Shown one piece after another: positions 43,120-64,000 of a DNA stretch of 64,000 nt; within the stretch, counting starts at the first letter, position 1; the number at the start of each line of letters is the position of its first letter. The stretch spans positions 186,001-250,000 of the forward strand of contig NZ_JAPYPG010000005.1 of the NCBI RefSeq assembly GCF_029937755.1. The letters run 5' to 3'. The notes beneath the pieces were generated by a model. That model saw nothing but the letters and a program-made list of their open reading frames with translations, was not told the DNA's origin and ran no database searches. This stretch comes from Henriciella sp. (GTDB lineage: Bacteria > Pseudomonadota > Alphaproteobacteria > Caulobacterales > Hyphomonadaceae). Both the position numbers and the translations under genes were made by a program.

Positions 43120-43232
43120 GAATAACGGGCATGGCAAAGATTAAGGCCGCCCGGCCCGCATACTGCTGAAAACACTACAGATTGCATTTGAAACTATTTG
43201 CTGTCGTCCGGTTTCGGCCTGTCACGCGAATC

Positions 43233-43305: not shown

Positions 43306-44811
43306 GTGTTGACCTCATCACCGCTTCATTCGGAATCATCCGCCTCAACCGGCCCGGTTGAAGCCCGCCGCGCATTCCCGTCTCAGCAGACTGCAGGCAC
43401 CGCTCTGGACATCTATCCCGAATGGCTGGGCGACCAGCGCTTCAGTCATCAGCATGGCAGCCGCTTCTGTTACGTCGTGGGGGAAATGGCCCGCGGTATC
43501 GCGACCCCGCTTATGGTTATTGAGGCCGTAAAGGCCGGTCTGGTCGGCTTCTATGGCAGCGCTGGCCTGCGGCCTGAAACGATTGCCGCCGGCATTGACG
43601 AAATCGAGGCCGGTCTCGGCAAGAACGCGCCAGCCTGGGGGGCCAACCTCATCCACTCTCCACAGCAGCCGGGCTATGAACGCGCCGTGGTGGACCTCTT
43701 CCTGGCGCGTGGCGTCGCCCGCGTCTCGGCCTCTGCCTTCATGGCGCTGTCCAAGGAGATCGTGCGCTACAGTGCCAGAGGCCTGTCGCGTGCCGAAGAT
43801 GGCAGCATTGCCCGCTCCACCCATGTCTTTGCCAAGGTCTCCCGCGCTGAGGTGGCGCGTCACTTCATGGCGCCGGCACCCGACAAGCTTCTTGCTGGCC
43901 TTGTGTCCGCAGGCGATATCAGCGCCGAACAGGCAGAGCTTGCGAAGCTCGTTCCCGTGGCTGCCGACATCACGGCCGAATCCGACAGTGGCGGCCACAC
44001 AGACAATCGCCCGGCCGGCCCGCTTTTCTCCTCGCTTTTACGCACGCGTGAAGATGTCTGCGCAGAGTACGGCCTCTCGCCAGACATGATCAGGATCGGC
44101 CTGGCCGGAGGGATCGGTACGCCCTGGGCAGCTGCCGCCGCCTACCAGATGGGCGCGGCCTATATCCTCACTGGCTCGATCAACCAGGCCGCCATCGAAT
44201 CCGGCCTGTCGCCCGAAGGCCGAAAGCTGCTCGCAGAGGCTGGTCCGGCGGACGTCGCAATGGCACCTGCCGCCGACATGTTCGAGCAGGGTGTCGAAGT
44301 CCAGGTACTCAAACGCGGCACGCTGTTCGCGATGCGCGGCAAGCGGATGTGGGAGATCTACAAGGCCCGCTCCGGTTTCGAAGACTGCACGCCTGACGAG
44401 CAGAAATTCATCGAGACCGCGCTTGGCGAACCCTTCGCTGCCGCCTGGGAGCGGACGCGTGCCTATATGCAGGGCGCCAATCCGAAGGAACTTGCGCTCG
44501 CCGAAGCCGAGCCGCGCCGCAAGCTCGCGCTTGTTTTCCGCCGCTATCTCTTTTTCGGAGCACAGTGGGCCCGCGATGGCGAGGCGGCCCGGCTGCGCGA
44601 CTTCCAGATCTGGTGCGGGCCGGCCATGGGCGCGTTCAACGAATGGGCAAAGGGAAGCCCGCTCGAAGCGCTTGAAAACCGGACCGTGCGCCAGATCGCG
44701 TGGAACCTGCTGGACGGGGCAGCGCACATCACCCGCATGCAGGCCATGAGAGCCACCGGCCACGACGTGCCCGGTTCAGCCTTTGGTTACCAACCGGGGC
44801 TATTTCAGTAA
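43306..44811 (+). CDS. pfaD: Trans-acting enoyl reductase PfaD
   Basis: The FMN-dependent enoyl reductase reduces double bonds on acyl-ACP of the Pfa synthase. The protein (501 residues from GTG 43306) shows the PfaD pattern: YVVGEMARGIATPLMVIEAV, GFYGSAGLRPETI, WGANLIHSPQQPGYERAVVD, DITAESDSGGHTDNRP, IGLAGGIGTPWAAAAAYQMG, and a C-terminal helical half with FQIWCGPAMGAFNEW. The start is uncertain: no ATG is in frame, and GTG 43306 has GAAGGGG some 12 bases upstream. It precedes pfaA by 28 bases. Confidence 0.93.
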   Translation: MLTSSPLHSESSASTGPVEARRAFPSQQTAGTALDIYPEWLGDQRFSHQHGSRFCYVVGEMARGIATPLMVIEAVKAGLVGFYGSAGLRPETIAAGIDEIEAGLGKNAPAWGANLIHSPQQPGYERAVVDLFLARGVARVSASAFMALSKEIVRYSARGLSRAEDGSIARSTHVFAKVSRAEVARHFMAPAPDKLLAGLVSAGDISAEQAELAKLVPVAADITAESDSGGHTDNRPAGPLFSSLLRTREDVCAEYGLSPDMIRIGLAGGIGTPWAAAAAYQMGAAYILTGSINQAAIESGLSPEGRKLLAEAGPADVAMAPAADMFEQGVEVQVLKRGTLFAMRGKRMWEIYKARSGFEDCTPDEQKFIETALGEPFAAAWERTRAYMQGANPKELALAEAEPRRKLALVFRRYLFFGAQWARDGEAARLRDFQIWCGPAMGAFNEWAKGSPLEALENRTVRQIAWNLLDGAAHITRMQAMRATGHDVPGSAFGYQPGLFQ

Positions 44812-44839
44812 CGTTTGATTAGCGGAGGGGCTGATCAGA

Positions 44840-47800
44840 ATGACCAGTAAGACCACTCATCCAGCCGATATCGCCGTTGTAGGCCTCGGCGCCATGTTTC
44901 CGGGACGCGGCAACACTGCAGGCTTCTGGCGCGACATCGCCGAAGGCGTCGATACGCTCGGCCCGGTGCCAGAGACCCACTGGCTGATCGAGGACTATTA
45001 CGACGCCGACCCGCGCGCGAAGGACAAGACCTATGGACGCCGGGGCGGTTTCCTCTCACCGCAAGGCTTCGATCCCCTCGCATTCGGCATCCCGCCCAAC
45101 CAGATCGAGGCGACCGACACCGCCCAGCTTCTGGCCCTGATCGTGGCCCAGCAGGCCCTCGATGAGGCCGAAGCCGCGACCAATGGTGTGATCGACCGCA
45201 AGCGCACGAGCTGCGTCCTCGGTGTCGCGTCGGCCACCGAACTGGTTGGCCATATGTCCGGGCGCCTGCAGCGTCCGGCCTGGGTAAAAGGCCTTCGCGA
45301 AGCCGGCCTGCCGGAAACCCAGGTGCAGGAGATCGCCGACCGGATTTCCTCGAATTTCTCTGAATGGAAGGAAAGCACCTTCCCTGGCCTGCTCGGCAAT
45401 GTCGTCGCCGGGCGTATCGCCAACCGGATGGACCTTGGCGGCTCGAATTTCGTCACCGATGCAGCGTGCGCGTCTTCGCTCTCTGCCGTGCAGGTCGCAC
45501 TGCACGAGCTCAACTCCGGCGACAGCGACATGGTGCTCGCCGGGGGTGTCGACACGCTGAACGACATCCTGATGTATATGTGCTTCTCGAAGACGCCGGC
45601 ACTTTCCCCGACTGAGGATTGCCGCCCCTTCTCGGACAAGGCCGACGGCACCATGCTCGGCGAAGGCATTGGCATTGTCGCGCTACGCCGCCTCGAAGAT
45701 GCCGAGCGTGATGGCAACCGCATCCATGCGGTGATCAAGGGTATCGGCGCGGGGTCTGATGGCCGGGCCACCGCAATCTATGCGCCCCTGCCTGACGGTC
45801 AGGCCCGTGCGCTGAAACGCGCTTACGAACAGGCTGGGTACGATCCTCGCACTGTGGAGCTGATCGAGGCCCATGGCACGGGCACGAAAGCCGGCGACGC
45901 CGCGGAGCTCGGTGGACTGAAGCTGGTCTTCTCGCCAGACGGTGAGCCGGTCGATGAGCCGTGGTGCGCCATCGGGTCGGTAAAATCCCAGATCGGTCAC
46001 ACCAAGGCGGCTGCAGGCTCAGCCAGCCTCATCAAGACTGTGATGGCCCTGTCCCGCAAGGCCTATCCGCCAACGATCAAGGTCGACCAGCGCGCGCCAG
46101 CGCTCACCGGTTCGCCCTTCTATCCCAACCGGGAACTGCGACCCTGGGTTCGCAAATCAGACCATGCTCGCCGCGCGGCTGTCAGCAGCTTCGGTTTTGG
46201 CGGTTCGAATTTTCACCTGACACTGGAAGAATATACCGGACCCAACGCCGCCCAGCCCGAGCGCACCCTGTCAGCCGAACTCTTCATGATCTCTGCCGAC
46301 ACCCCCGAGCGCCTGGAAAAGATCCTCGAAGCGCTCGCCGCCCGGCTGGAGCATGAGGAAGACCTCGCCATCGTTGCGTCGGAAACCCACAGCGCCTTCG
46401 ACATCACCGCGCCCTGCCGCGCCTCGATCGTCGCTACCGACAATGAGGACTATGCCGAGAAAGCCGGCAAGCTCGCCTGGCTGCTCAGCTCAGCTCAGGC
46501 CGAAGCCGCGCCGCGCCCGAAAGGTGTCAGCGTCTCACTGTCACCGGCCAGCCCCGGCAAGCTTGCCTTCCTGATGCCCGGCCAGGGCAGCCAGTATGTT
46601 GGCATGGGCCGCGACCTGGCTCTCGCCTTCCCCGAAGCGCGCACGGCCTGGGATCTCGCCGCCAGCCACAAGAAGACCGGCAAGCAGGCGTTGCACAATC
46701 TCGCCTTTCCGCCCTCGGCCTATACGCCCGAGGAGGCTGTCGAGCAGGCCGACCGGCTGACTGCGATGGAGAATGCCCAACCCGCACTCGCCGCCGCCTC
46801 GCTCGCCGTTCTCGCCGTGCTCGACAAGGCCGGGCTGTCGCCTGAAATGGCTGCCGGCCACAGCTTCGGCGAGATCATGGCGCTGCAAGCCGCTGGTGCC
46901 CTGAGCGCGGATGACGCGCTCACCGTGGCCCACAAGCGGGCAAAGCTGATGGCCAAGGCCGCCGCATCGAATGAAGGCGCCATGCTGGCCACGCAGGCCG
47001 CCGCAGAAGCCCTCGCACCGATCCTGGAAGACCATCCGGATGTCGTCATCGCTAATGACAATGCTCCAACGCAGACGGTGCTATCCGGCCCGGTCGAAGC
47101 GATTGAGGCCGCCCGCGCCGCCATCGAAGCGGCCGGTATCAAGGCCCGGCGGCTGCCCGTGGCCTCGGCATTCCATTCGCCGATCGTTGCTGGCGCCGTC
47201 GATCCGTTCCGCAAGGCGCTGGAGAAGGTGGACTTCGCCAAGGCCCGCTTCCCGGTCTTCGCCAATGTCTCGGCGAAACGCTATCCGCTTGCCTATGCAA
47301 GACAGCGCGACCTGCTGGCCACGCAGATCGAAAGCCCGGTCAAGTTCCGCTCCATCATCGAGGCGATGGCCGAAGACGGCGTCACCACCTTTGTCGAGGC
47401 AGGCCCCGGTACGGTGCTGACCGCCCTTGTCGGCCAGATCCTGCCCGGCAAGGCAAACGCCGTCGCGCTCGACGACAAGAAGGGTGACGGTCTCGCCGCT
47501 TTCCTCTCCGGCCTCGGCAAGCTTGCCGTGCTCGGCCACGCAGTCGATTTCAAGGCACTCTTCGCCAACATGCCCGCGCCGCAACCACGCAAGCCGCGCT
47601 CGAAACATGCGATCGACCTGAACGGCGCGAATTACCACAAGCCCTATCCGCCCAAAGGCGGCGCCGCGTCCCTGCCGCCGCCCAATCCTGAGCGGAGCGC
47701 GCCAGCGCAGCCAGCCGCCGCCGCGACCCGCCCGGAGCCGCGCACCGTGGCGCCGCCATCACCCACGCCCAAGCCCGACCAGACGCCGGAACCACCGGCG

Positions 47801-48838
47801 CGGCCCGCACCGCAAAGCGCCGCCACACCCCCAACACCTACGCCCGCAGGAGCCCAGTCCGTGACCCAGTACAGCCGCCCGGCCAGTGACGCCAACGAAC
47901 GCATCCACGCAAACATGACAGCCGCCCATGCCGACTATATCGAGGCGCTGCGTGCCGCTCATGCGCACTATCTCCAGGCCTCTTCCAGCCTGCTCGGGTC
48001 GGCCTCCAGCCATGTAATCGATCACGAACCGCAACAGCGCCGCCAGCTTGCCCCGCCGCCGGCCCCCGCCGATGCTCCGCAAGCCGAGGCGCCAGCCGCA
48101 CCAGAGCCTGCCCCGCAACCGGCTGCAGCGACCGCCCCCGAGCCTCAGGCCGCCCCGGCTCCGGCAGCACCTGCACCAGCAGCGCCGGCACCGGCACCCG
48201 CCACACAGACGGCTCCGGCCGCTCCCCCTGCAGCCCCATCACAAGACTTCAGCGGCCTCGTTGCCGCCCTCGTTGCAGAGAAGACTGGCTACCCGGTCGA
48301 TATGCTCGAGCCCGACATGGACCTTGAGGGCGAGCTTGGCGTCGACTCCATCAAGCAGGTCGAAATCCTGTCGGCCCTGCGCGAAAGCATGCCGGAGCTG
48401 CCGGAAGTCGAGCCCGAACAGATCGCCGAACTGCGCACCATCCGCAAGATCGCAGACTTCCTCGCCCCTGCCGGCTCATCTGCCCCGGCGCCTGCGAAGA
48501 ATGGGAATGGCAATGGGCACACGAATGGAAACGGCAACGGCCATCACGCGCCTGCGACTGAAGTACCCGCCGCGACAGCACCAGCCCCTGCCGCGTCGGC
48601 TCCCGCCGGCGATGACATGGCCGAGCTTGTCCGTGGCCTGATCGCCGAAAAGACCGGTTATCCGCCAGAAATGCTCGAGGACGATATGGACCTCGAAGGC
48701 GAACTTGGCGTCGACTCCATCAAGCAGGTCGAAATCCTCTCGGCCTTGCGCGAGCAGATGCCCAACCTGCCAGAAGTCGAACCGGAGCAGATCGCCGAGC
48801 TTCGCTCGATCCGGAAGATCGCCGATTTTTTTGGCTAG
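44840..48838 (+). CDS. pfaA: PfaA-type polyketide/PUFA synthase: KS-AT-ACP-ACP
   Basis: The 1332-residue iterative synthase subunit has a ketosynthase (residues about 8-470; Cys210 in DAACASSLS, HGTGT near 350, GHTKAAAG near 387) and an acyltransferase (about 570-880; GQGSQYVGMG, Ser675 in GHSFGE). A Pro/Ala-rich linker of some 200 residues follows, then two near-identical acyl carrier domains with ELGVDSIKQVEIL (Ser near 1168 and 1291). PfaA proteins usually have 4-9 ACPs and end with a ketoreductase. Here there are two, and the frame stops at TAG after ACP2 while the ketoreductase continues in the -1 frame. ATG has GGAGGGG upstream. Confidence 0.94.
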   Translation: MTSKTTHPADIAVVGLGAMFPGRGNTAGFWRDIAEGVDTLGPVPETHWLIEDYYDADPRAKDKTYGRRGGFLSPQGFDPLAFGIPPNQIEATDTAQLLALIVAQQALDEAEAATNGVIDRKRTSCVLGVASATELVGHMSGRLQRPAWVKGLREAGLPETQVQEIADRISSNFSEWKESTFPGLLGNVVAGRIANRMDLGGSNFVTDAACASSLSAVQVALHELNSGDSDMVLAGGVDTLNDILMYMCFSKTPALSPTEDCRPFSDKADGTMLGEGIGIVALRRLEDAERDGNRIHAVIKGIGAGSDGRATAIYAPLPDGQARALKRAYEQAGYDPRTVELIEAHGTGTKAGDAAELGGLKLVFSPDGEPVDEPWCAIGSVKSQIGHTKAAAGSASLIKTVMALSRKAYPPTIKVDQRAPALTGSPFYPNRELRPWVRKSDHARRAAVSSFGFGGSNFHLTLEEYTGPNAAQPERTLSAELFMISADTPERLEKILEALAARLEHEEDLAIVASETHSAFDITAPCRASIVATDNEDYAEKAGKLAWLLSSAQAEAAPRPKGVSVSLSPASPGKLAFLMPGQGSQYVGMGRDLALAFPEARTAWDLAASHKKTGKQALHNLAFPPSAYTPEEAVEQADRLTAMENAQPALAAASLAVLAVLDKAGLSPEMAAGHSFGEIMALQAAGALSADDALTVAHKRAKLMAKAAASNEGAMLATQAAAEALAPILEDHPDVVIANDNAPTQTVLSGPVEAIEAARAAIEAAGIKARRLPVASAFHSPIVAGAVDPFRKALEKVDFAKARFPVFANVSAKRYPLAYARQRDLLATQIESPVKFRSIIEAMAEDGVTTFVEAGPGTVLTALVGQILPGKANAVALDDKKGDGLAAFLSGLGKLAVLGHAVDFKALFANMPAPQPRKPRSKHAIDLNGANYHKPYPPKGGAASLPPPNPERSAPAQPAAAATRPEPRTVAPPSPTPKPDQTPEPPARPAPQSAATPPTPTPAGAQSVTQYSRPASDANERIHANMTAAHADYIEALRAAHAHYLQASSSLLGSASSHVIDHEPQQRRQLAPPPAPADAPQAEAPAAPEPAPQPAAATAPEPQAAPAPAAPAPAAPAPAPATQTAPAAPPAAPSQDFSGLVAALVAEKTGYPVDMLEPDMDLEGELGVDSIKQVEILSALRESMPELPEVEPEQIAELRTIRKIADFLAPAGSSAPAPAKNGNGNGHTNGNGNGHHAPATEVPAATAPAPAASAPAGDDMAELVRGLIAEKTGYPPEMLEDDMDLEGELGVDSIKQVEILSALREQMPNLPEVEPEQIAELRSIRKIADFFG

Positions 48839-48873
48839 GGGGCGCGCCGGCGCCTGAGCGCGCCGCCCGCCCC
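48826..48873 (+). other. Candidate -1 ribosomal frameshift signal joining ACP and KR
   Basis: In the pfaA frame the codons are GAT TTT TTT GGC TAG, so T TTT TTT (48826-48832) is in exact X XXY YYZ register. Six bases later a GC-rich stem-loop begins: GGGGCG (48839-48844) with CGCCCC (48868-48873), enclosing CGGCGC (48848-48853) with GCGCCG (48860-48865). A -1 slip continues as WLGGAPAPERAA into a Pro/Ala linker and the ketoreductase. A single-base sequencing or natural indel is the main alternative. Confidence 0.5.
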
Positions 48874-48903
48874 GCGCCTGATCCGGCACCGCCTGCTGAA
48901 ACG

Positions 48904-50328
48904 TTGGCGGTGCGTGCGGTCACATACCAGCCGCAGATCCCCGTCGGCAGGGTCACGCCCGGCCTGCGTGAGGCCGCGCTGATAGAATTCATCGGCAGCG
49001 ATCCGGCACACGGACAGGCCATCGTTCAGGCCATGCTGGAAGCGGGCTTTGTCATCCGCGAAGTCGCCCAGCCCTCCGGTCAGGCCGATGCGCTGATCCT
49101 CGCCCATGGCCTTACCGGCACGACGCTCGACGCCCATTGCGGCGCGCTGGAAGCCATCTCGGCTCAGGCGAAACGTTTCGAGGAACGCGGTGGAACGCTG
49201 ATCCTGCTTCAGGACACCGGCGGGCGCTTCCAGCCAACCGACCATCGCGCCTGGCGCGGCGGCCTGACCGGGCTGGCCCGCACAGCCGCCCGTGAATTCC
49301 CCAAGGCGACCGTGCGCGCTATCGACATGGACATTGCCGATCTCGGTCTGCAGGGCGCGACCGACCGCCTGGTCGAGGAGCTATTGAGCGGTGGCACTGC
49401 CCCGTGTGTTGGCCTGTCGGCACAAGGCCGGCTCGTTCCAGCCGATGGCCTTGCTGCGCTGCCCGGCAACCGGCCGGGCCTGATCGGCTCACAGGATGTG
49501 ATCCTTGTCACGGGCGGTGCGCGTGGGGTCACCGCTGATTGTATCATCGAACTCGCCCGGCGCACGCAGGCGCGGTTTGCCCTGCTCGGCCGCTCCGCAA
49601 TCACACCGTGGCCCGACGACCTTGCCCCTGTCACAGATGAGAAGGCCCTGCGCGGCGCCCTTGCCGCCCGCGCCAAGGCGAAAGGCGAGAAAGTCTCGCC
49701 CGCAGCCCTCAACAAGGAGGCGCGCGCCCTGCTGTCGGGTGCCGAAATCCGCAGTACGCTGGGCGCCATCGAACAGGCTGGCGGCAAGGCGCTTTACGTA
49801 CCGACCGATGTCGCCGACCCGGCTGCTTTGGTTGACGCGCTGTCACGCATTGAGGCCGGCCTTGGTCCGGTCACCGGTCTTGTCCATGGCGCAGGCGTTC
49901 TGGCCGACAAGCTGATCCGCGAGAAGACCCGTGACCAGGTGGAAAAGGTCTTTGCGCCAAAAATTTCCGGCCTTGAAGCGATCCTTGCACTGATCAACCC
50001 CAACCAGCTGAAAACAATTGCCTTTTTCTCATCTGTCGCAGCCCGGTACGGCAATGCCGGGCAGGCTGATTATGCGATGGCGAACGAGATCCTGAACCGC
50101 ATGGCACACTGGCTGAAAGCCGCAAATCCTGACGCCGCGATTACCTCACTTGGCTGGGGCCCATGGGATGGCGGCATGGTGGATGAGAGCCTGAAAGCGA
50201 AATTTGCCGAAATGGGCGTTTCCCTCATCCCGCGTATGGCGGGGGCCAACCTTTTTGCGGACGCGGTGCTTGCTGGCGATGCCTGCCCTGTGGAACTCGT
50301 GATCGGCTCCGAGATTGCCCATGGCTGA
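48904..50328 (+). CDS. Ketoreductase domain of PfaA (separate frame)
   Basis: The 474 residues from TTG 48904 match the PfaA C-terminal ketoreductase: a degenerate N-terminal Rossmann half (ALILAHGLTGTTLDAHCGAL, LTGLARTAAREFP), then the NADPH site ILVTGGARGVTADCI, VHGAGVLADKLI, and FFSSVAARYGNAGQADYAMA with catalytic Ser and Tyr. It reduces 3-ketoacyl-ACP. No Shine-Dalgarno precedes any start codon, and the frame is open and linker-like (APAPERAARPAPDPAPPAE) right back to the pfaA stop. Expression as an extension of PfaA by frameshifting therefore fits better than independent initiation. It overlaps the next gene by eight bases. Confidence 0.85.
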   Translation: MAVRAVTYQPQIPVGRVTPGLREAALIEFIGSDPAHGQAIVQAMLEAGFVIREVAQPSGQADALILAHGLTGTTLDAHCGALEAISAQAKRFEERGGTLILLQDTGGRFQPTDHRAWRGGLTGLARTAAREFPKATVRAIDMDIADLGLQGATDRLVEELLSGGTAPCVGLSAQGRLVPADGLAALPGNRPGLIGSQDVILVTGGARGVTADCIIELARRTQARFALLGRSAITPWPDDLAPVTDEKALRGALAARAKAKGEKVSPAALNKEARALLSGAEIRSTLGAIEQAGGKALYVPTDVADPAALVDALSRIEAGLGPVTGLVHGAGVLADKLIREKTRDQVEKVFAPKISGLEAILALINPNQLKTIAFFSSVAARYGNAGQADYAMANEILNRMAHWLKAANPDAAITSLGWGPWDGGMVDESLKAKFAEMGVSLIPRMAGANLFADAVLAGDACPVELVIGSEIAHG

Positions 50329-53300
50329 CGGCGGGTTTGAGCCGATTGCCATTGTCGGACGCGGCTGCGTCCTGCCCGGCGCGCTAACGCCAGCCGCGCT
50401 ATGGCAAGCCGTGCTCGAGGATCGCGACCTGCTGAGCCAGGCGCCTGCGGGAAAGTGGGGCGTCACCGATAGCGAACAGGCCGCCATGAGCTATCGCGGC
50501 GGCTTCGTCACCGGCTTTGACGACGTCTTCGACCCGTCCGCATACGATCTTGGCGAGATCGGCGTGCTCAGCCTCGACCCGCTTTTCCAGTGGCTGCTGC
50601 ATGCGGGGCGTGAGGCCTGGCAAGAGGCCGGTAGCCCGAAGGTGAAGCGCAAGAAGCTCGGTGTCATCGCCGGAAATCTCGGCTATCCGAGCCGTACGCT
50701 CTGTGACTTTGCCGGTGATATCTGGGACAGCGGCCAGTCCGAAATCGAGCCCTTTAACCGCTTCAATACCGGTGGCCCCGCCCGCCTGCTCGCACAGGCG
50801 CTTGGCGCAAAAGGCCCGGCCTTTGCGCTGGATGCCGCCTGCGCATCCTCGCTGTATGCCGTGAAACTCGCCTGTGACCGGCTGCAGGACGGCTCGCTCG
50901 ATGTGGCGGTCGCGGCAGCGGTGAACGGGGCCGATAACCTTATCCTGCATCAGGGCTTCTCGGCGCTGAACGCGCTCAGCCCCACAGGCCGGTCGCGTCC
51001 CTTCGTGAAAGGCGCTGACGGGCTTGTCCCGGCTGAAGGCGCAGCAGCCATCGTGCTGAAACGGCTGGCCGACTGCACCAGCGATGACACGGTGTACGGT
51101 GTCATTCGCGGCATTGGCCTTTCCAATGATGGCCGGCGCAAATCGCTATTGGCGCCGGATGAAGGCGGACAGGCCGAAGCCATGGCGGCAGCCTGGGCCA
51201 TGTCCGGGCTTGATCCGTCTGCGGACATTGGCCTCGTTGAAGCGCACGCCACAGGCACACCCACCGGTGACAAGGTCGAACTGATGGCGACCGCGCAGCA
51301 TTTCGCCGGTGTTGACGGCCTGCCTGTTGGCTCGCTCAAGGGCAATCTTGGCCACCTGATAACCGCAGCAGGTCTGGCCAGCCTCATCAAGATGAGCTTC
51401 GCCATCAATGAGGGCATCATACCGCCGACCCGGCTCGACGGCGCGGCGCTGGATAGTTTTTCCACCTCCACCCTCATCCCTGCCCGCAAGGCTGATTGGC
51501 CGGCAGACCGACAGCGCGTCGCCGCGATCAGCAATTTCGGCTTTGGCGGCAATAATGCCCACTTGATCCTGACAGCTGATGAGGGTGAGCGCCCGAAACC
51601 GCCGAAGCGCAAGCGCTCGAAACCCGAAGCGGTGATCTGCTCGACAGGACTGTCCATGGGCCCTGACCGGGGCGTGGCAGCAGTGCTGCAGCGCCTCTCG
51701 CGTCCGCCACAACAGGCACGCGGTGCGATGGCAGAGGTCGCTTCCCAGCCTAAATTGTTGCGCACCCCGCCATCCGAGCTGCGATCGGCTCAAGGTCAGC
51801 AGCTCGCCCTTTATGATGCGGTCGATGAGGCTCTGAACCGCCACCCGCTCGAGGACGGCGCACGCGTCGGCGTGTTCACCGGCTTTTCCTGTTCGCCTGA
51901 GGCAGCCCGCTGGATGCTCCGTGCCCGGATTGCCGAGCGACTGGGTCTTGATCCACAGGCGCCGGAAACTGATGCGATCCGGAATGACATCGCGCCGCCG
52001 CTCAAGGCTGGTGATGTGCTCGGTGCGATGCCGAACGTCTCGGCCAACCGCATCAATGTCCGGGGCGACTGGCGCGCGCTTGGCTTCGCCGTGATGGAAG
52101 AAGAGGTGTCGGGCCTGCGCGCACTGGAGCTCGCCATGCGCGCGCTTGAGGCCGGCGAAATCGACGCCGCCATCGTTGCTGCCGCCGACCTCTCTTCCGA
52201 CCCTGTTCACGAAACCGCTACCCGCGAAACAGGCGGCGATGCCGCTGTGGCGTTTGTCCTGAAGCGGGCCGGCGAAGCCGATGGCCCGCTTCTGAAATCG
52301 CTGAAGCTCGACGGTGCGCGGGCTAAGCCAACGCTGTTTGAACACCTCTATGGCCGCTCACATGCCGCTGGCAGCCTCGCCCGGCTCGCGGTGCAGGCCG
52401 AACTGACCGCGCGCGGCCTGATGCTGGAAGACACAGGGCTCGCCCCCTCGCTGGACCGCAAGGCCCTGAAGCTCGCACTCCCTGGGGGAACAGCAAAGCT
52501 GAAGGCGACCCCACGCCCGGCACCCGATTTGCTGCGCCAGGCACCGCTGCTCGAAACCTATGCCGCCGACACGCCCGAAGCGCTCGCCAAAGCAATAAGT
52601 ATTGGCCAACAGGGCGGATCGGGGCTTTCCCGCCTCGCCTTCGTCGCGAGCGATGAAACCTCGCTTGCGGCTAAACGGGATGTCGCCCTCGCTGCGCTCA
52701 AATCAGGCCACGCGCCAGCAGGCGACGGCATTCATTATGGCGCCGGTCCAGCGGCAGGCGATCTCGCCTTCGTCTTTACCGGCGCCGCCGCGGCCTATCC
52801 CGGCATGGGACTCGGGCTGTTTGCCGCTTTCCCAGAGCTCGGCCCGTTGATGACGCAGAAATTCCCGGCGGCCCAGGATGTCGCCCGGCTGCTCGCCACG
52901 GGTCTTGCACCGGCCTATGATCAGCTGCGGGCCACCACGCTTATCACGCAAGCCCAACATATCCTCCTGACGCGGCTGCTCGGTCTCAAGCCGAGCGTGG
53001 CCATGGGGCTTTCCTCCGGTGAAACCAATTCGCTTATTGCGTTCGGCGCCTGGGTCGATGCCGACGGTCTCATGGCGACGATCGGTGAAAGCGGGATGTA
53101 TACGGAAGACCTGGCCGGCGCCTTCCGGACCGCGCAGGCCGCCTGGAAGGATGATGCCCCCGTCGAGTGGCAGACATGGCGCGTGCGGGCGGAGGAAGCC
53201 CGCATCCGTACAGCGCTTGAAGACGAACCGCGCTGCGACCTCACCATTCTTTACAGCCCGACCGACGGTGTCATCTCAGGAGACGCGGCTGCCTGCCAGC

Positions 53301-56300
53301 GCGCACTGAAACAGCTTGGTGGGTCGGCGATCCGTGTGCCGCATGACCTTGTCGTCCATACACCCATGATGGCGCCCTATGAAAAGACCTGGCACCAGCT
53401 CCATCACCGCAAGACAAAAGCGCCCAAGGGCGTCCGCTTCTACGCCAATGCCGTGAATGGCGCATACACGCCGAATGCGGATACGATTGCTGACATGCTC
53501 ACGGGGCAGGCCGTTTCGGAGATCCACTTTCCGAAGACGCTCGCCCAAGCCCATGCCGATGGCGTGCGGACCTTTGTGGAGATCGGCCCGCGCGACACGC
53601 TGACCGGCGCAGTCCGTGAGACGCTGGGCGAGACTGTTCAGGCTGTCGCGGCAGACCGGTTCGGGCAGCCTGCCCTGATGGACATTGCAACGCTCAGTGC
53701 GACAGTCTTCGCGGCCGGGCACACCATCGACACAGGCTGGATAAAGACCCGCCTCGCCGAAGCCCGCAACAACGCCATACCGTTACGCACAAAGGCTCCC
53801 GGCGAGATGGTCTTCCCCGCCCACGCCCCGCTGCCCCGCCTGCCGAAGCGGCACCCGAAGAGACACGTTTCAAGACCGGAGGCGAAAGCCCTGAAACCCT
53901 TTACTCCGCCCCCGCCAAAACCGGCCACCGGACGCACACTCCACCTCCCGCCCGGGTCGACGTGGACAGCGCCATCCGGTCCCGGCACTAAGGCCACGGC
54001 GCTCCTCGAACGGCCTCAGACGACACCGACGGCTCGCCGCGCTACGCCGAAGCTGGCCACGGCGGCGAAACCGCATGTCCGCCCGCTGGAGCGCTGGGAG
54101 CCGACCGGCCCGAGCTTTACGCGCGCCGAGCTGGAGCAGGCGGCCGCTGGAAGGATTTCCGATGTGTTCGGCCCGCAATTTTCCGCGCAGGATAAATTCC
54201 GTCGACAGGTCCGCATGCCACGTCCTCCGCTGCTGCTGTGCGACCGGATCACCGGCATCGACGCGGAAGCGCTGGTTCAGGGCAAGGGCACGATCTGGAC
54301 GGAAACCGATGTCACCGATGGCCATTGGGCCGTCAGCGACGGCGTTCTGCGCCCCGGCCCGCTGATCGAGGCTGGTCAGGCCGATCTTGCGCTCATCTCC
54401 TGGATGGGCGCCGACATGCTGAACTGTTCTGATCGCGTCTACCGCCTGCTCGGTTGTGAGCTGACCTTCCATGAAGGCGGCCTGCCGCGCGTGGGCGAAA
54501 CCGTCCGTTTCCAGATTTCCATCAAGGGCCATGCGGAGCTGTCCGGCGTGCGCATGTTCTTCTTCGAATATGACGGCTATGCCGATGACCGGCTGGTTCT
54601 GTCGGTGCGCAACGGACAGGCAGGCTTCTTCACCGATGAAGAACTTGCCAACTCCAAGGGCGTCCTCTGGGACGCCGAAACGGACAGCGCGCCAACCGCC
54701 GATGCCGTGCTGGACAAAATGGCGCCGACGGCGAAGCGCAGCTTCAGTGCTGCCGAGGTCGCCGCCTTCCGCGCGGGCGATACGTTCCGCTGCTTCGGCG
54801 AGGGCTTCGAGCGCGCTGCGCCGCAGACCAGACCTGCCCGACTGCCGTCCGGACGGCTCGCCTTGTTCGATGATATCGAGAGCTTCGATCCAGCAGGCGG
54901 GCCATGGGGGCGCGGCTATCTGAAAGCCCGCCAGCATGTGCCGAAAGACGCCTGGTTCTATGATGGCCACTTCCACGAAGACCCCTGCATGCCGGGCACG
55001 CTGATGGCCGAGGCCGCCGTGCAGGCGCTGGAATTCACCGCCGCCGCCATGGGCCTCACCGTGGACCGCGACAGCCATGTCTTCGAGCCTATGCCGGGCG
55101 AGGCCGCGACCTTCTATTGCCGTGGCCAGGTCATTCCGGACGCCGATCATGACGTCACCTATGAGGTCTTCGTGGACGAGGTGATCGATGGCGAAGAGCC
55201 GGTCGTCTTCGCGAGCCTTCTTGCACGCTCGGATGGCCGCAAGGTCTTCTACTGCCCCCGCTTCGGCGTACGCCTGCGCCGCCAGTGGCCGGAAATGAAG
55301 AAGGCGGCCAACGTCCCGCATTACGTCAATGATGAGTGCGATGTGCGCGGTGACGAGGCCGCCATGATCGAATGCGGCTCGGGTGCCCCAAGCAATGCGT
55401 TTGGCTCCATGTATGCGCCCTTCGACACGCGTGGCGCCGTCCCGCGCCTGCCGCAGCCGCCTTACCATATGGTGAGCCGCGTCCTGTCCGTGAGTGGACC
55501 ATCCGGCCAGCAGAAGGCCGGGCTCACCGCCGTCGCCGAATACGACATCCCACCGGATGCCTGGTACTTCCTCGATGGCGGCACAGGCACCATGCCTTTC
55601 TCGGTGCTGACCGAAGTCATCCTGCAGCCCTGCGGCTGGCTCGCCTCCTATTCGGGCTTTGCCCTGTCCGGCGAGACGCGTTTCCGCAATCTTGACGGCA
55701 AGGGCACGACCGCGCGCCAGATCCGCCCTGAAGACGGCACGATCCGCACACGGACAACCCTTACCCGCTGCTCTCGCGTCGGCCCGATGACCATTGTCTT
55801 CTTCGAACTCGAAGCGACCCTCGCAGACGGGACACCTGTCGTGACGCTGGAGACGAGCTTCGGCTTCTTCACGAAGGCGTCGCTGGCCGCACAGGCTGGC
55901 CTGAAAGCCAGCGACGAGGCGCGTGCCTTCATCAATGCACCCGCCGATCCGCCAAGCGAGGCCGAAACCGTCCTGCCGGCTTCCACTGGCAGGCTTGGCC
56001 TTCTTGATTTGATCGACCGATATGAGCCGGACGGCGGCGAAAACGGCCTTGGCCGCATCCGCGCGCGCCAAAGCGTCGATCCCTATGCCTGGTATTTCCG
56101 CGCGCACTTTTTCTCCGACCCGGTCCAGCCCGGCTCGCTCGGCCTCGACATGCTGGTCCAGCTGCTCGCCCGCGCCGCTGATCTGAAGGGAGCCGGCGCC
56201 GGCTTCGACGATCCGGTCTGGGAACCGGTCGCCCCCGGCAATGAGGTGGCCTGGACCTATCGCGGTCAGGTCACGCCAACAGCGAAACAGGTCACGGCAA

Positions 56301-57580
56301 CCGTCGAGATCGACCACATCGAAACCGGGGAAGACGGGAAAACCGTCCTCGGGACGGGATCGCTCTGGGTCGATGGTTTGCGAATTTACGAGATGCGCGG
56401 CGTGAGCATCCGGGTGCGTGAAAAAACCGGACTGGAATCGGACTGTCACCGGACTGTTTTCGGACCCTCATTTCCGGCCTGGGTCGGCGCGCACCGGCCC
56501 ACCCACACCCTTCCGGCGCTGCCGCTCCTCTCGCAGGCCGGGATGCTGTTGCGACAGGCACAGAACACCGGGATTTCCGGATACCCAATTGAAATAAAGG
56601 CGTTTTCCCCAAAGCAGTGGGCGAACATTCCAGAGGACAGCCTACGGCTCGAGACCCGTGTCAGACCCGACGGCCGGGCGACCCTGCGCGCACGAAAGAC
56701 CGCTGACCCTGACGCCCCCTTCCACATACTGTCCGCTGGAGAGATCGTCTCTCGCCCCCGTCCACCCGCGCCGCGCCTGAAACCGCGAGACCATGGTGTG
56801 CCACTGCCCGATCCTTATGAAACAGCCGACCTCTTCCACGGCCCCGGGCTGCGCCCCGTTACCGAAATGCGCCGTGATGCAAGCGGCTTTGAGGCGACGG
56901 TCGATCTTGAACAAGCCGCCCATCCGGGGGACGCGTTCGACGCGGTCATCCTGGATGCGCTGGTGCACGGCCCTCCGCACGAGCGCCCGGAAGAGTGGTT
57001 CGACGGTGTCGAGGATTGCGCGATCTATCCCGTTCGTATCGACCGGCTGGTGATCTGTTCCGACCTTCCCGAGACCGGCCACCTTACCATTCGGGGCGTG
57101 CCCGGCCAGCGCGATCCGGCAACCGGCGACCTACCCGTCACCATTGAGGCCTTCCTCGGGACGAAACTGTGGGCGCGCCTGGACCTGATCGAGAAAGCCT
57201 ATCCGAAAGGTCCGCTTGCCGCGCTGGAGCCCCTGGAAAGACGCGATTTTCTGACGGGCGCCAGCGATGCCCATCCGTCACCGCTCAGCCGCTGCGACGG
57301 GACACGCACGCTCCTGTCCCCCGCCGATGTTATCGCGTGTGACTGGTTGCCAGGCACGGTTGCCGCCGCCTGGGGCTGCGACGGGCTGACGGGCAGTGCG
57401 CTGGTCAAAGCTGTCGCAGTGAAGGAGCATTTTGCGCGCAAGTGGGGGATCCACCCGCGGAAAGTCCAGTTCGATCCGCCATTCGTCATTGGACCGCATG
57501 GCCGTCACCGCTACGAATTGACGTTCGAGTCGAAGGCCCGGGCATGGGCCGTTGCGGATGATGTGTATGAGCAAGATTGA
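50321..57580 (+). CDS. pfaC: PfaC-like megasynthase: KS-CLF-AT-DH-DH with dehydratase-like C-terminus
   Basis: At 2419 residues this joins what are PfaB and PfaC elsewhere. Order: active KS (1-415; Cys174 in DAACASSLY, HATGT, GNLGHLITAAG), a chain-length-factor KS lacking the Cys (about 430-720), an AT (about 800-1145; Ser898 in GLSSGE), and a Pro-rich linker. Two FabA-like double-hotdog dehydratases follow (about 1250-1670 with His1550 in GHFHEDPCMPG; about 1700-2040 with His1929 in AHFFSDPVQPG). The last 370 residues contain a PKS-type dehydratase-like region (LFHGPGLRP) and a VKEHFARKW segment resembling the WxxKE helix of phosphopantetheinyl transferases. ATG 50321 lies in the ketoreductase stop overlap. 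It probably works with PfaA, KR and PfaD to elongate and desaturate acyl chains. Confidence 0.88.
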   Translation: MADGGFEPIAIVGRGCVLPGALTPAALWQAVLEDRDLLSQAPAGKWGVTDSEQAAMSYRGGFVTGFDDVFDPSAYDLGEIGVLSLDPLFQWLLHAGREAWQEAGSPKVKRKKLGVIAGNLGYPSRTLCDFAGDIWDSGQSEIEPFNRFNTGGPARLLAQALGAKGPAFALDAACASSLYAVKLACDRLQDGSLDVAVAAAVNGADNLILHQGFSALNALSPTGRSRPFVKGADGLVPAEGAAAIVLKRLADCTSDDTVYGVIRGIGLSNDGRRKSLLAPDEGGQAEAMAAAWAMSGLDPSADIGLVEAHATGTPTGDKVELMATAQHFAGVDGLPVGSLKGNLGHLITAAGLASLIKMSFAINEGIIPPTRLDGAALDSFSTSTLIPARKADWPADRQRVAAISNFGFGGNNAHLILTADEGERPKPPKRKRSKPEAVICSTGLSMGPDRGVAAVLQRLSRPPQQARGAMAEVASQPKLLRTPPSELRSAQGQQLALYDAVDEALNRHPLEDGARVGVFTGFSCSPEAARWMLRARIAERLGLDPQAPETDAIRNDIAPPLKAGDVLGAMPNVSANRINVRGDWRALGFAVMEEEVSGLRALELAMRALEAGEIDAAIVAAADLSSDPVHETATRETGGDAAVAFVLKRAGEADGPLLKSLKLDGARAKPTLFEHLYGRSHAAGSLARLAVQAELTARGLMLEDTGLAPSLDRKALKLALPGGTAKLKATPRPAPDLLRQAPLLETYAADTPEALAKAISIGQQGGSGLSRLAFVASDETSLAAKRDVALAALKSGHAPAGDGIHYGAGPAAGDLAFVFTGAAAAYPGMGLGLFAAFPELGPLMTQKFPAAQDVARLLATGLAPAYDQLRATTLITQAQHILLTRLLGLKPSVAMGLSSGETNSLIAFGAWVDADGLMATIGESGMYTEDLAGAFRTAQAAWKDDAPVEWQTWRVRAEEARIRTALEDEPRCDLTILYSPTDGVISGDAAACQRALKQLGGSAIRVPHDLVVHTPMMAPYEKTWHQLHHRKTKAPKGVRFYANAVNGAYTPNADTIADMLTGQAVSEIHFPKTLAQAHADGVRTFVEIGPRDTLTGAVRETLGETVQAVAADRFGQPALMDIATLSATVFAAGHTIDTGWIKTRLAEARNNAIPLRTKAPGEMVFPAHAPLPRLPKRHPKRHVSRPEAKALKPFTPPPPKPATGRTLHLPPGSTWTAPSGPGTKATALLERPQTTPTARRATPKLATAAKPHVRPLERWEPTGPSFTRAELEQAAAGRISDVFGPQFSAQDKFRRQVRMPRPPLLLCDRITGIDAEALVQGKGTIWTETDVTDGHWAVSDGVLRPGPLIEAGQADLALISWMGADMLNCSDRVYRLLGCELTFHEGGLPRVGETVRFQISIKGHAELSGVRMFFFEYDGYADDRLVLSVRNGQAGFFTDEELANSKGVLWDAETDSAPTADAVLDKMAPTAKRSFSAAEVAAFRAGDTFRCFGEGFERAAPQTRPARLPSGRLALFDDIESFDPAGGPWGRGYLKARQHVPKDAWFYDGHFHEDPCMPGTLMAEAAVQALEFTAAAMGLTVDRDSHVFEPMPGEAATFYCRGQVIPDADHDVTYEVFVDEVIDGEEPVVFASLLARSDGRKVFYCPRFGVRLRRQWPEMKKAANVPHYVNDECDVRGDEAAMIECGSGAPSNAFGSMYAPFDTRGAVPRLPQPPYHMVSRVLSVSGPSGQQKAGLTAVAEYDIPPDAWYFLDGGTGTMPFSVLTEVILQPCGWLASYSGFALSGETRFRNLDGKGTTARQIRPEDGTIRTRTTLTRCSRVGPMTIVFFELEATLADGTPVVTLETSFGFFTKASLAAQAGLKASDEARAFINAPADPPSEAETVLPASTGRLGLLDLIDRYEPDGGENGLGRIRARQSVDPYAWYFRAHFFSDPVQPGSLGLDMLVQLLARAADLKGAGAGFDDPVWEPVAPGNEVAWTYRGQVTPTAKQVTATVEIDHIETGEDGKTVLGTGSLWVDGLRIYEMRGVSIRVREKTGLESDCHRTVFGPSFPAWVGAHRPTHTLPALPLLSQAGMLLRQAQNTGISGYPIEIKAFSPKQWANIPEDSLRLETRVRPDGRATLRARKTADPDAPFHILSAGEIVSRPRPPAPRLKPRDHGVPLPDPYETADLFHGPGLRPVTEMRRDASGFEATVDLEQAAHPGDAFDAVILDALVHGPPHERPEEWFDGVEDCAIYPVRIDRLVICSDLPETGHLTIRGVPGQRDPATGDLPVTIEAFLGTKLWARLDLIEKAYPKGPLAALEPLERRDFLTGASDAHPSPLSRCDGTRTLLSPADVIACDWLPGTVAAAWGCDGLTGSALVKAVAVKEHFARKWGIHPRKVQFDPPFVIGPHGRHRYELTFESKARAWAVADDVYEQD

Positions 57581-58151
57581 GTTGATTGTGGTGGATGAGC
57601 GCACGCTGCCGCTGGTCCAGCACCTGCGCTACCGGGTCTATTGCGCCGAGAAACAGTTCGCCATGCCGGGCGCCGATCATGAAGCCCGCATGTTGTTCGA
57701 CGAGGCGGACTCACTGGGCGTAACCTTCGCTCTTTTCGACGGTGCCGATCTTGTCTCAAGCGCGCAGGTGATCCCGGTCGATCCGCTCAAGGCCCCTGAT
57801 AAGTTTGCGGTTTTTGATCTTCGAAATGCCTTGCCCCGGCCCGACCATGGCGCCGTAATCGTCTCGAAACTGGTGACCGCACCGGACCGCCGCGGCTCCA
57901 AAACGCTCGGCCCGGTGATGCGCGCGGTGCTCGATTTCGTCGCGCAGGAAAAGCGCCGCTACATCGCCATCCTGGCAGAACCCTCAATGCGGGACTTCTA
58001 TGTCTCCATGGGCTTCGACATCATGAAGGAAGACATTGATGCCGCGCCCTTTGGAAAGGTCGCGCTCATGGTCTTCGACATGCGCGATGAGCGTCATACG
58101 AGCGGCAAGTCGCTCGCCGGGTGGATGTTCAAATCGGTCTTTACCGGCTGA
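57567..58151 (+). CDS. GNAT-fold acyltransferase, autoinducer-synthase/FeeM-like
   Basis: The 194-residue protein has an early LRYRVYCAEKQFAMPGADHE segment like the Arg/Tyr-rich N-terminus of LuxI and FeeM-type N-acyl amino acid synthases. It continues with ALFDGADLVSSAQVIP, a cofactor-loop region VIVSKLVTAPDRRGSKTLGPV, and FYVSMGFDIMKE typical of GNAT ends. Such enzymes take the acyl group from acyl-ACP to an amine. Its start lies inside the end of the PfaC-like gene (14-base overlap), which argues for a role in releasing the synthase product. Acceptor and product are unknown; a protein or lipid acetyltransferase is the alternative. Confidence 0.7.
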   Translation: MSKIELIVVDERTLPLVQHLRYRVYCAEKQFAMPGADHEARMLFDEADSLGVTFALFDGADLVSSAQVIPVDPLKAPDKFAVFDLRNALPRPDHGAVIVSKLVTAPDRRGSKTLGPVMRAVLDFVAQEKRRYIAILAEPSMRDFYVSMGFDIMKEDIDAAPFGKVALMVFDMRDERHTSGKSLAGWMFKSVFTG

Positions 58152-58776
58152 AGGCCAAGACGGCGAGCCAGTCCTCAGACGGATGGATGGCCTTGAGGTG
58201 AACGATCGTACCGCCCTCGTCCAGTTCGACATCGTCAATGCCGCCAGAGATGAAAGGCACTGGAATGTCTATGGTTTTCGCGCCACCGCGAAACCCGTTG
58301 CCCCGCCATTTCAGCACAGCTTCCTTGGCACACCAAAGGCGGTAGAAACCGTGGAGCGCGTCCGGCCCATCCCCCAGTCCCGCCATGACCGCGCGTTCGG
58401 TCTGCGTGGCGATCATGTCGAGCATCGGCGCAACACGACGCGGCAGCACCTGTTCCACATCTGCCCCCAGTCGTCCGTCACGAAGCAGCGCGGCAAAAGC
58501 GTGTGGGCCGGAGCGGGACCAGGAAACCGAGACGCTATCATCCCCCTCCACGCCGGGCGGCGCATCATCATGGATCTCAAGCCTGACCGCATCTTCCGCT
58601 AGCCGCAGTTCACGCGCCGCCAGGAGGCGCATCAGGTGACGGGCATGCAGGAAGTTCTGGGCGTGGGCAGGATCAATCAGTCGTCCGGCCCGGTCGGCTT
58701 CACGCTGGTCTCGAGGACTGAGCGGAGGCGCGGCGGCCTGCCGGCAGGCATGGGTCCAGACCGGTGTATCCTGCAT
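58141..58776 (-). CDS. Sfp-type 4'-phosphopantetheinyl transferase
   Basis: The 211-residue enzyme has the Mg-binding LGADVEQVLP and the FYRLWCAKEAVLKWRGNG motif (WxxKExxxK) of the Sfp family, plus a basic N-terminal CoA-binding part (ARHLMRLLAA). It should attach phosphopantetheine to the tandem ACPs of PfaA, activating the synthase. It is convergent with the GNAT gene, and their 3' ends overlap by 11 bases. Confidence 0.9.
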   Translation of the reverse strand: MQDTPVWTHACRQAAAPPLSPRDQREADRAGRLIDPAHAQNFLHARHLMRLLAARELRLAEDAVRLEIHDDAPPGVEGDDSVSVSWSRSGPHAFAALLRDGRLGADVEQVLPRRVAPMLDMIATQTERAVMAGLGDGPDALHGFYRLWCAKEAVLKWRGNGFRGGAKTIDIPVPFISGGIDDVELDEGGTIVHLKAIHPSEDWLAVLAFSR

Positions 58777-63800: not shown

Positions 63801-64000
63801 GTGTGGATGGTCCGATCGATGCGGTCTCTGCGCTGCTTGTGCCGCCTCAAATGGTGCTGCGAGGCCTCATCGACCTGGAAATGTCGGGGAGCTTGCCAAC
63901 CCTCAATGAAAGCTTTTCCGGCGAGCTTCGCTTCGCCGAGGGCGAGTTTGAGCATGGCGATCTCGGCATGGTGCTGAACCAGATCAATGCGGCAGCCACG
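60890..64000 (+). CDS. tamB: Translocation and assembly module protein TamB (3' end missing)
   Basis: From ATG 60890, overlapping the tamA stop by one base, 1037 codons run open to the window end. After a basic leader there is one membrane helix (residues about 21-41), then FAAQSEFGRQFVEKRIEAAD and DIEIEGLSGDLLGTFRIERL, the usual TamB/YtfN opening. A long repetitive beta-rich stretch follows, suited to a periplasm-spanning hydrophobic groove. The DUF490 end expected at the C-terminus is outside the window. Confidence 0.93.
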   Translation, partial: MSSETATPEGEKKRRPILKWSLIVLGVLAGLVLILLLTLRFAAQSEFGRQFVEKRIEAADPSGQDIEIEGLSGDLLGTFRIERLTIADDQGVWLVAEDVLADWKPLALRKRALLVDAFEADLIHMLRRPNLVSNASSGGGSMPLRAGELDRLRISELRTEKGVLPRALSLEINGQGRIAGDGGRTQLSVLPLEGEGDELLADLTWSDDVRLRGTLDLNGPAGGLFAALARLEPGQSLSASLDADGTLDDWAGEATIAVDGETAVEAEAGTEDGVIGFDLTAFPRRHPLSRQVADTLGETITVEGRLLSNDDRQRLLELTANAEGLELDAQAGRPQSGTYSADIRLAIDEPSRYADRDNISVSSALLDGTLVYDQGAARFEGTLEASDVDVPSFTAETVSGPLNVVYDSPSILVRTTLTGERATLPGMTGKIAGGQPVLKLNGQYALGSRTLSLRETLLTGKAGRVSAAGTMSFSPSFNADMAGSFTVDGAAADLQRPVKLNGQFQANRAGAGRTTFTLSTRASNFGSLPSPLSQWSDGQARLDARGEIQGGGAVRLSSFSLQSGTLQLDGSGRMTSEQRLMAEADLTAGEARLAGMALDSLNGRVSITGPVSDLNFETRLNAPSLGNDSISFSNINLIADGRYGDGTLNTAAELTSETSNNGPITVRTGLIVNGRQWSVSDFQAEWGSLTAEAGLRGDGGKLSTIRGELSVNGNLPEGLPAERIVADANIQGERLAIDATLESFAVGPTEADALVFRASGTPENVDFLIEMRGSTELNELSYETVLDMDGHVEGLTTGRIDLTTSLSALLGDIGLNTEEPLRYTQYEDGFEASARFAALGGTFSPSVTTRGQTALRLEGEGLRIAPVLLIAGRPALEGVLSIDVDFTETEGGLSGPFNAELAGISQPGSELGPVDLIISGDLQTDQLVTNIRADDNEALEARVDITVPVRTMEAPPFILRQPDTEMPFQARVDGPIDAVSALLVPPQMVLRGLIDLEMSGSLPTLNESFSGELRFAEGEFEHGDLGMVLNQINAAAT

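Follow-up and report, generated by a model that had tools for sequence, protein, structure and literature searches.

A Pfa-type synthase locus of Henriciella with a PKS-type dehydratase end and a FeeM-like GNAT gene

How polyunsaturated fatty acid (PUFA) synthases release their finished chain is unsettled, and a Pfa-type locus of Henriciella sp. raises the question of whether a small GNAT acyltransferase encoded at its 3' end could do so. We analysed a stretch of 64,000 nucleotides from contig NZ_JAPYPG010000005.1 (hereafter the window); its host falls with Henriciella, and its PfaA ketosynthase (KS) is 91% identical to that of H. mobilis. All six genes named in a preliminary description of this DNA were found at 43306-58776, namely those for PfaD, PfaA, a ketoreductase (KR), a fused PfaBC protein with KS, chain-length factor (CLF), acyltransferase (AT) and two dehydratases (DH), a GNAT acyltransferase and an Sfp-type phosphopantetheinyl transferase (PPTase). 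The results showed that the distinctive part in Henriciella is the 3' end, with a polyketide synthase (PKS)-type DH on PfaBC and a FeeM-like GNAT gene, and not the gene split. We lean towards a reading in which the chain made by the Pfa-type synthase is released onto an amino group by the FeeM-like GNAT, so that the product would be an N-acylated amino acid or amine lipid.

Domain content of the locus and the dehydratase at the end of PfaBC

The six genes and the C-terminal extension of PfaBC are arranged as follows.

43306-44811, + strand: pfaD, PfaD-family enoyl reductase (TIGR02814, 529.8 bits, cut-off 449.25)
44840-48838, + strand: pfaA (A1 part), KS, malonyl-type AT and two acyl carrier proteins (ACPs) (Pfam KS, Acyl_transf_1 and two PP-binding stretches)
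48904-50328, + strand: pfaA2, ketoreductase protein (PF08659, E 4e-34; 0 aa beyond the KR)
50321-57580, + strand: pfaBC, KS, CLF, AT, FabA-type DH1, FabA-type DH2 and predicted PKS-type DH (Pfam, NCBIfam, alignment, motifs)
56426-57577, + strand: C-terminal extension of PfaBC, predicted PKS-type (PS-DH) double-hotdog domain and then a short C-terminal subdomain (alignment, AlphaFold (AF2) model, fold search)
57567-58151, + strand: FeeM-like GNAT acyltransferase (PF21926 FeeM), its ATG at 57567 lying within the pfaBC 3' end with a 14-nt overlap with the pfaBC stop
58141-58776, - strand: Sfp-type 4'-phosphopantetheinyl transferase (PF01648, 46.5 bits, cut-off 25), convergent with the GNAT gene

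The locus holds the components of a Pfa synthase: PfaD, a KS-AT protein with tandem ACPs, and a KS-CLF protein with tandem FabA-type DHs. Active-site motifs were retained in both KSs, both ATs, both ACPs, the KR and both FabA-type DHs. PfaA carries DAACASS, GHSFGE and two copies of GVDSI (positions 45458, 46856, 48338 and 48707). In PfaBC, the KS carries DAACASS, the CLF region lacks that motif and has residues 440 and 524 as its sole Cys, the AT motif is GLSSGE, and the FabA-like motifs are GHFHEDPCMPG in DH1 and AHFFSDPVQPG in DH2. This AT reached 61 bits against the PfaB family TIGR02816 (cut-off 144.3), indicating an AT that is present and divergent from PfaB. PfaA scored 999.3 against TIGR02813, slightly below the cut-off of 1010.1, because the KR sits on another protein (which aligns only with positions 1912-2268 of the 2582 of that model). 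These two scores are the weak points of the Pfa assignment. The start of pfaD at 43306 is a GTG; the same frame is open from a TTG at 43198, and the alignments of PfaD relatives start at residues 7 to 54 of the frame opened at that TTG. On the strand opposite pfaBC, an open frame of 859 aa spans 53870-56449 (-), probably a side effect of G+C-rich codon usage.

The preliminary description had pointed to an extra dehydratase-like end on PfaBC. A PKS-type DH is present there, but it is not simply extra, since nothing follows the KR. The extension comprises about 380 aa (the last 384 residues) and is missing from two aligned proteins of a sister genus in the Hyphomonadaceae. Its conserved His and Asp are residues 2058 and 2212 of PfaBC, and His23 and Asp177 of the extension alignment were invariant across 17 sequences, eight of which are just 22-33% identical to the window protein. 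The AF2 model was confident (pLDDT 87.1), and the best PDB match of the fold search (E 4e-14) was to PKS DH domains; the 50 PDB matches listed were PKS dehydratase domains, larger PKS chains or relatives of the same fold. The Pfam PS-DH match lay below the cut-off (E 0.013). Judged by its predicted fold, the extension is a separate PKS-type dehydratase.

We then counted the residues beyond the KR and beyond DH2 in 37 loci. Five pfaA-B-C-D-type, six mycobacterial and three Gemmatimonadota loci had 262-359 aa past the KR and 0-5 past DH2, while four Henriciella loci had 0-1 and 370-383, respectively. Seven Hyphomonas-type loci had at most 6 aa past the KR and at most 4 past DH2, so the PKS-type DH was absent in all seven. 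Long ends past DH2 were also seen in L092, L095, L105 and L112 (6-26 aa past the KR, 380-406 past DH2) and in L104 (8 and 594 aa); two Bauldia loci and L169 had ends at both places. L115 showed no KR, L061 was cut beyond DH2, and L065 and L058 had an end past the KR. As side observations, the two Bauldia loci (L103 and L096) combine a PKS-type DH in PfaBC with about 270 aa past the KR that weakly match the same profile, and L103 has an additional end without a Pfam match.

In canonical PfaA, a DH is placed C-terminal to the KR (PMC13291983), and it is on this published anatomy and on its length that we call the post-KR stretch a DH. Against a profile of the Henriciella PfaBC end, the stretch past the KR gave a weak match or none in the measured loci, which does not establish a shared origin of the two; the PKS-type DH may have been moved, exchanged, or lost at one place and gained at another. 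In Minicystis rosea, the corresponding DH4 alters the product, and a His-to-Ala change cancels this effect (PMC6731297). Loci with a PKS-type DH behind the KR, at the PfaBC end, at both sites or at neither offer a ready series on the effect of this domain on the product. Strict coupling of the PKS-type DH with the GNAT was considered and ruled out, since Bauldia, Denitrobaculum, Tepidamorphus and other loci have the DH without a GNAT.

The FeeM-like GNAT and the release of the chain

The window GNAT matched Pfam FeeM above the cut-off (E 7.8e-8, 32.7 bits, cut-off 27), and in a member-by-member scan FeeM (7.4e-8) stood well ahead of Acetyltransf_9 (0.0015). Among 14 aligned GNAT members, scanned with E up to 1, FeeM matched 12 (best 1.2e-12), while Acetyltransf_5, the exosortase-acyltransferase model and, weakly, the OlsB model matched 13 each. 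The AF2 model of the GNAT (pLDDT 90.5) aligned with FeeM 2g0b at a TMq of 0.75 and 13-14% identity in the structural alignment. Five of the six FeeM chains had the top TMq values (0.70-0.75) among the 50 PDB matches listed, the sixth (0.68) being level with BjaI; in the same set, the acyl-homoserine lactone (AHL) synthases LasI, BjaI, RpaI and TofI stood near the top by TMq.

The gene is under purifying selection, with dN/dS of 0.07-0.15 in five pairs (rough values, dS 0.95-1.7). With starts set by a nearest-Met rule, the gene overlapped pfaBC by 4-8 nt in six of the eight named Henriciella loci with a GNAT and did not overlap it in the other two. All close relatives found (66-88% identity) lay next to this locus, in 14 of the 29 genomes of the genus set. 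Of 398 genomes sampled from the phylum, three matched the GNAT profile at E 1e-6, all Henriciella. A genome scan kept 80 named Pfa loci, many of them cut at contig ends; the eight with a GNAT were all Henriciella, and the GNAT hidden Markov model (HMM) had no match at E 1 in the other 72, some of them cut short. A weak GNAT match (E 0.11) came from L063, a pfaA-B-C-D-type locus of the genome that also carries L041, and no homologue on plasmids matched at E 1e-3. In the window genome, the sole Acetyltransf_5 match at E 0.01 was this GNAT, below the family cut-off.

If each domain acts as its motifs and fold suggest, PfaA, the KR, PfaBC and PfaD would iteratively assemble a long acyl chain on the two PfaA ACPs, which the local PPTase would charge. 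The FabA-type DHs could place cis double bonds in the chain; dehydration, normally the task of a DH after the KR, would fall to the PKS-type DH of the PfaBC end. The GNAT, made in presumed translational coupling with PfaBC, would then take the chain from the ACP and acylate an amino acid or amine at its amino group. Acyl-ACP is used in ornithine-lipid synthesis as well as by AHL synthases and N-acyl amino acid synthases (PMC11631085). In place of a glycerolipid-bound PUFA, the locus would yield an N-acylated amino acid or amine, which might be free or make up the first half of an aminolipid. A bolder version, which we offer tentatively as a possibility, is a dedicated operon in which a polyunsaturated chain built from malonyl units and the FeeM-type GNAT together yield polyunsaturated N-acyl amides, endocannabinoid-like in kind, and which one clade of Henriciella has as a core trait.

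Some loci of other lineages have a different acyltransferase at this place. A domain of the 1-acylglycerol-3-phosphate acyltransferase (AGPAT) type lies within PfaBC in L104, L123, L161, L169 and L232 (an Azospirillum lipoferum plasmid), matched by PF01553 in four of the five and by a custom HMM in all five. That HMM was made from segments of L104, L115, L161, L169 and L232, whose matches are therefore by construction; L123 is independent. The domain precedes the PS-DH in L104 and follows it in the other four, and L115 has a separate PlsC-like gene 3' of pfaBC that aligns poorly with the other AGPAT segments. These five loci indicate that this region of the protein is a place for a terminal acyltransferase; the myxobacterial AGPAT presumably acylates 1-acylglycerol-3-phosphate (PMC6731297). 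At E 0.01, the AGPAT HMM had no match in the window frames or in the scanned Henriciella, Hyphomonas, mycobacterial and Gemmatimonadota loci, and PF01553 was absent from the six window proteins.

Several results weigh against release by the GNAT. Acetyltransf_9 matched all 14 GNAT members (best 3.3e-7), more than FeeM did. Small acetyltransferases gave the best Foldseek E-values for the GNAT model, and the AHL synthases BjaI, RpaI and MesI are CoA-dependent by their PDB titles, so the fold is no proof of acyl-ACP use. A PDB sequence search with the GNAT profile returned four weak matches up to E 10, with FeeM not among them. A six-frame search of the genus passed the FeeM cut-off in six of 29 genomes, a count that excludes the window genome, although the protein of the window does pass. 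With the window GNAT as query, a search of 299 genomes from the order turned up distant relatives (22-27% identity) at E 1e-3 in seven, which belong to another family, and three of the seven stayed below 1e-6; their loci (L015 and L029-L034) had no Pfa domain match within their stretches of 3.2-3.5 kb, and L029, one of four scanned, gave weak exosortase-acyltransferase and OlsB matches.

The nearest tail-bearing loci in the PfaBC-KS tree (L092, L095, L105 and L112) had neither an AGPAT match (E 0.01) nor a GNAT match. The preliminary description had suggested that the GNAT replaces the acyltransferase of myxobacterial Pfa3; the GNAT does stand where other lineages have an AGPAT, but direct replacement is not borne out by these four loci. 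Because so many scanned loci, these four included, gave no AGPAT match, an exchange of AGPAT for GNAT is a reading and not a demonstration. Hyphomonas loci also had neither match, indicating that an enzyme of these two kinds is not obligatory. Moreover, PfaB has been proposed as the terminal acyltransferase that hands over or releases the chain (PMC12895367), and by that proposal the PfaBC AT may do the same.

An account that we consider rather doubtful builds on this last point: the locus would be an ordinary Pfa synthase whose PfaBC AT feeds housekeeping lipid synthesis, and the GNAT would be an accessory enzyme, such as a protein or small-amine acetyltransferase, that does not off-load the chain. 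The retained GLSSGE motif of the AT, the Hyphomonas loci that manage without a GNAT, the reported role of PfaB, the lead of small acetyltransferases by Foldseek E-value and the matches of Acetyltransf_9 to all members agree with it. However, FeeM outscores Acetyltransf_9 both for the window protein and for the best of the family, FeeM has the top TMq among the 50 PDB matches listed, and the gene overlaps pfaBC and keeps its position across the clade.

It is unlikely, in our judgement, that the GNAT instead works like OlsB as the first step towards a membrane aminolipid, placing the Pfa chain on an amino acid to which a PlsC-type enzyme elsewhere in the genome adds the second chain. The Acetyltransf_5 and OlsB models weakly match 13 of the 14 members, and the subclade locus adjoins tamA and a gene at the tamB place. 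Against this, the window protein reached 15.1 bits with the OlsB equivalog NF052554 (cut-off 350), the six conserved genes hold no O-acyltransferase, and aminolipids often require a 3-hydroxy acyl chain (PMC11631085). We regard it as very improbable that the long chain is mainly saturated or hydroxylated, like those of heterocyst glycolipids or phenolic lipids. Although Pfa-like synthases with such products are known, both FabA-type DHs retain their His-containing motifs, and Type F, which makes heterocyst glycolipid chains, lacks these DH domains (PMC3098273).

Release onto an amino group by the FeeM-like GNAT, if true, would be another natural solution to chain release, and a stand-alone enzyme would tie PUFA-type synthases to N-acyl amino acid lipids. 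Hybrids of PUFA-type synthases with nonribosomal peptide synthetases have been reported (PMC12964715, PMC13291983). In the open-licence literature, we found nothing that pairs a PUFA synthase with a GNAT or with an N-acyl amino acid, and the opening parts of the abstracts returned for Henriciella lipids held nothing bearing on the lipids of this genus.

Distribution, phylogeny and genomic setting

Across the 29 genus genomes, the GNAT and PfaD were each found in 14, with 13 shared. The genome with a GNAT and no PfaD match (G005) has a contig end inside pfaBC; the one with PfaD and no GNAT (G013) carries it in a Hyphomonas-type cluster without the extension. Loci L116 and L160 (Henriciella sp. 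OFTM158; G013), filed as Henriciella, are Hyphomonas-type clusters and fell with Hyphomonas in both KS trees described below. The 14 GNAT genomes were exactly those with a TamA at least 66% identical to that of the window; of the remaining genomes, eight had a TamA of 41-45% identity and seven had none at E 1e-60. Because of this coincidence, the locus looks like a stable trait of one Henriciella subclade.

Thirteen further Henriciella loci were read, 10 of them whole and 3 truncated at contig ends; they keep the gene order of the window, with the GNAT between pfaBC and the PPTase in every one and the PPTase in the same place in 13 of 13. A PEP (phosphoenolpyruvate) carboxylase gene flanked the ten whole loci at one end, and all 13 had tamA as the neighbour at the opposite end. 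In relatives without the locus, we did not find an empty site between these two neighbours; four tamA regions lacking the GNAT (L193-L196) had no PEP carboxylase nearby. In the window, the neighbours are as follows.

40282-43119: divergent PEP carboxylase-like protein of 945 aa (PF00311, partial), directly upstream of the Pfa locus
59124-64000: tamA (Omp85), directly followed by a long gene in the tamB position (without a Pfam match at E 1e-5), beside the Pfa locus

Among the 80 named loci, the order PfaD, PfaA, KR, PfaBC recurred in Hyphomonas, Mycobacterium, Mycolicibacterium, Gemmatimonadota and other alphaproteobacteria. The KR is a separate gene in Hyphomonas, L061, L065 and L104, as in the window, and shares one open frame with the remainder of PfaA in the measured mycobacterial and Gemmatimonadota loci and in L092, L105 and L112. 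Two claims of the preliminary description did not hold. The gene split, taken there as unusual, was rejected as a novelty, since it is known in Type D (Shulse & Allen 2011, PMC3098273) and Hyphomonas matches this order, down to its separate KR gene and two ACPs. The two ACPs had been read as a hint of a product other than eicosapentaenoic or docosahexaenoic acid (EPA or DHA), a reading that was rejected; productivity rises with ACP number while the product profile stays unchanged (PMC5067506), and two ACPs do not speak against EPA or DHA.

Fused-pfaBC clusters were also seen in many Mycobacterium and Mycolicibacterium genomes (L099, L100, L102, L122, L124-L126, L129-L137, L139 and L141-L145), with a DH-sized end of 262-280 aa past the KR in the six measured and with pfaD wherever the locus reaches it. 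These mycobacterial clusters are possibly related to phleic acids.

The KS trees started from 52 chosen loci plus the window. A usable PfaA KS was lacking in five and a usable PfaBC KS in three, which left 48 and 50 rows, respectively; the trees have midpoint roots. Henriciella and the Hyphomonas group were joined in both trees (100/99) and stood apart from five pfaA-B-C-D-type loci, called EPA/DHA type by architecture alone; the KS check proposed in the preliminary description thus placed the window outside these loci. The next group consisted of tail-bearing rows, four in the PfaBC tree (94/90) and three in the PfaA tree (92/88). The labels that marked L064 and L104 as tailless in the second tree were wrong, as a PS-DH was found in L104 and in L169 (same genome as L064); label-change counts resting on these two labels are wrong, and the branching and the single Henriciella group are unaffected. 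Either loss of the DH in Hyphomonas or its gain in Henriciella may be the history.

Comparison with known systems

EPA/DHA Types A and B have a separate PfaB and a PfaA with KR and C-terminal DH, whereas Henriciella has a fused AT and a separate KR. Type D (Psychroflexus, Ulvibacter), likened here by its published description, has pfaA1 (KS-AT-ACP5), pfaA2 (KR) and pfaBC (KS-CLF-AT-DH2); it shares the split pfaA1/pfaA2 and the fused pfaBC with Henriciella and differs in its five ACPs, and the available text names no GNAT (PMC3098273). Hyphomonas, of the same family and the sister clade in both KS trees, shares pfaD, pfaA with two ACPs, KR and pfaBC. Of the 37 named Hyphomonas-type loci, 25 have a PPTase gene that converges on pfaBC (several others are cut at contig ends), and the difference lies in the missing PKS-type DH and GNAT.

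The likeness to myxobacterial Pfa3 noted in the preliminary description was supported by domain description. In the Pfa1-Pfa3 system of Minicystis rosea, of the arachidonic/docosatetraenoic acid (AA/DTA) type, Pfa3 shares KS-CLF-AT, two FabA-like DHs and the PKS-type DH4, and Minicystis additionally has an AGPAT on Pfa3 and a PKS-type DH1 on Pfa2 (PMC6731297). Henriciella differs in having no AGPAT match, a FeeM-like GNAT gene and a stand-alone KR without a following DH. On plasmid AZO_p1 of Azospirillum lipoferum 4B (L232), PfaD, PfaA, KR and PfaBC stand in the same order, and PfaBC has KS-CLF-AT-DH-DH and a PKS-type DH, being 43.7% identical to the window protein over 94% of the query; there, an AGPAT (PF01553) follows the PKS-type DH, and tblastn at E 1e-4 found no GNAT in 31 kb. 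For the GNAT itself, the nearest known system is the N-acyl amino acid synthase FeeM (PDB 2g0b), with which it shares the fold (TMq up to 0.75) and a match to Pfam FeeM above the cut-off.

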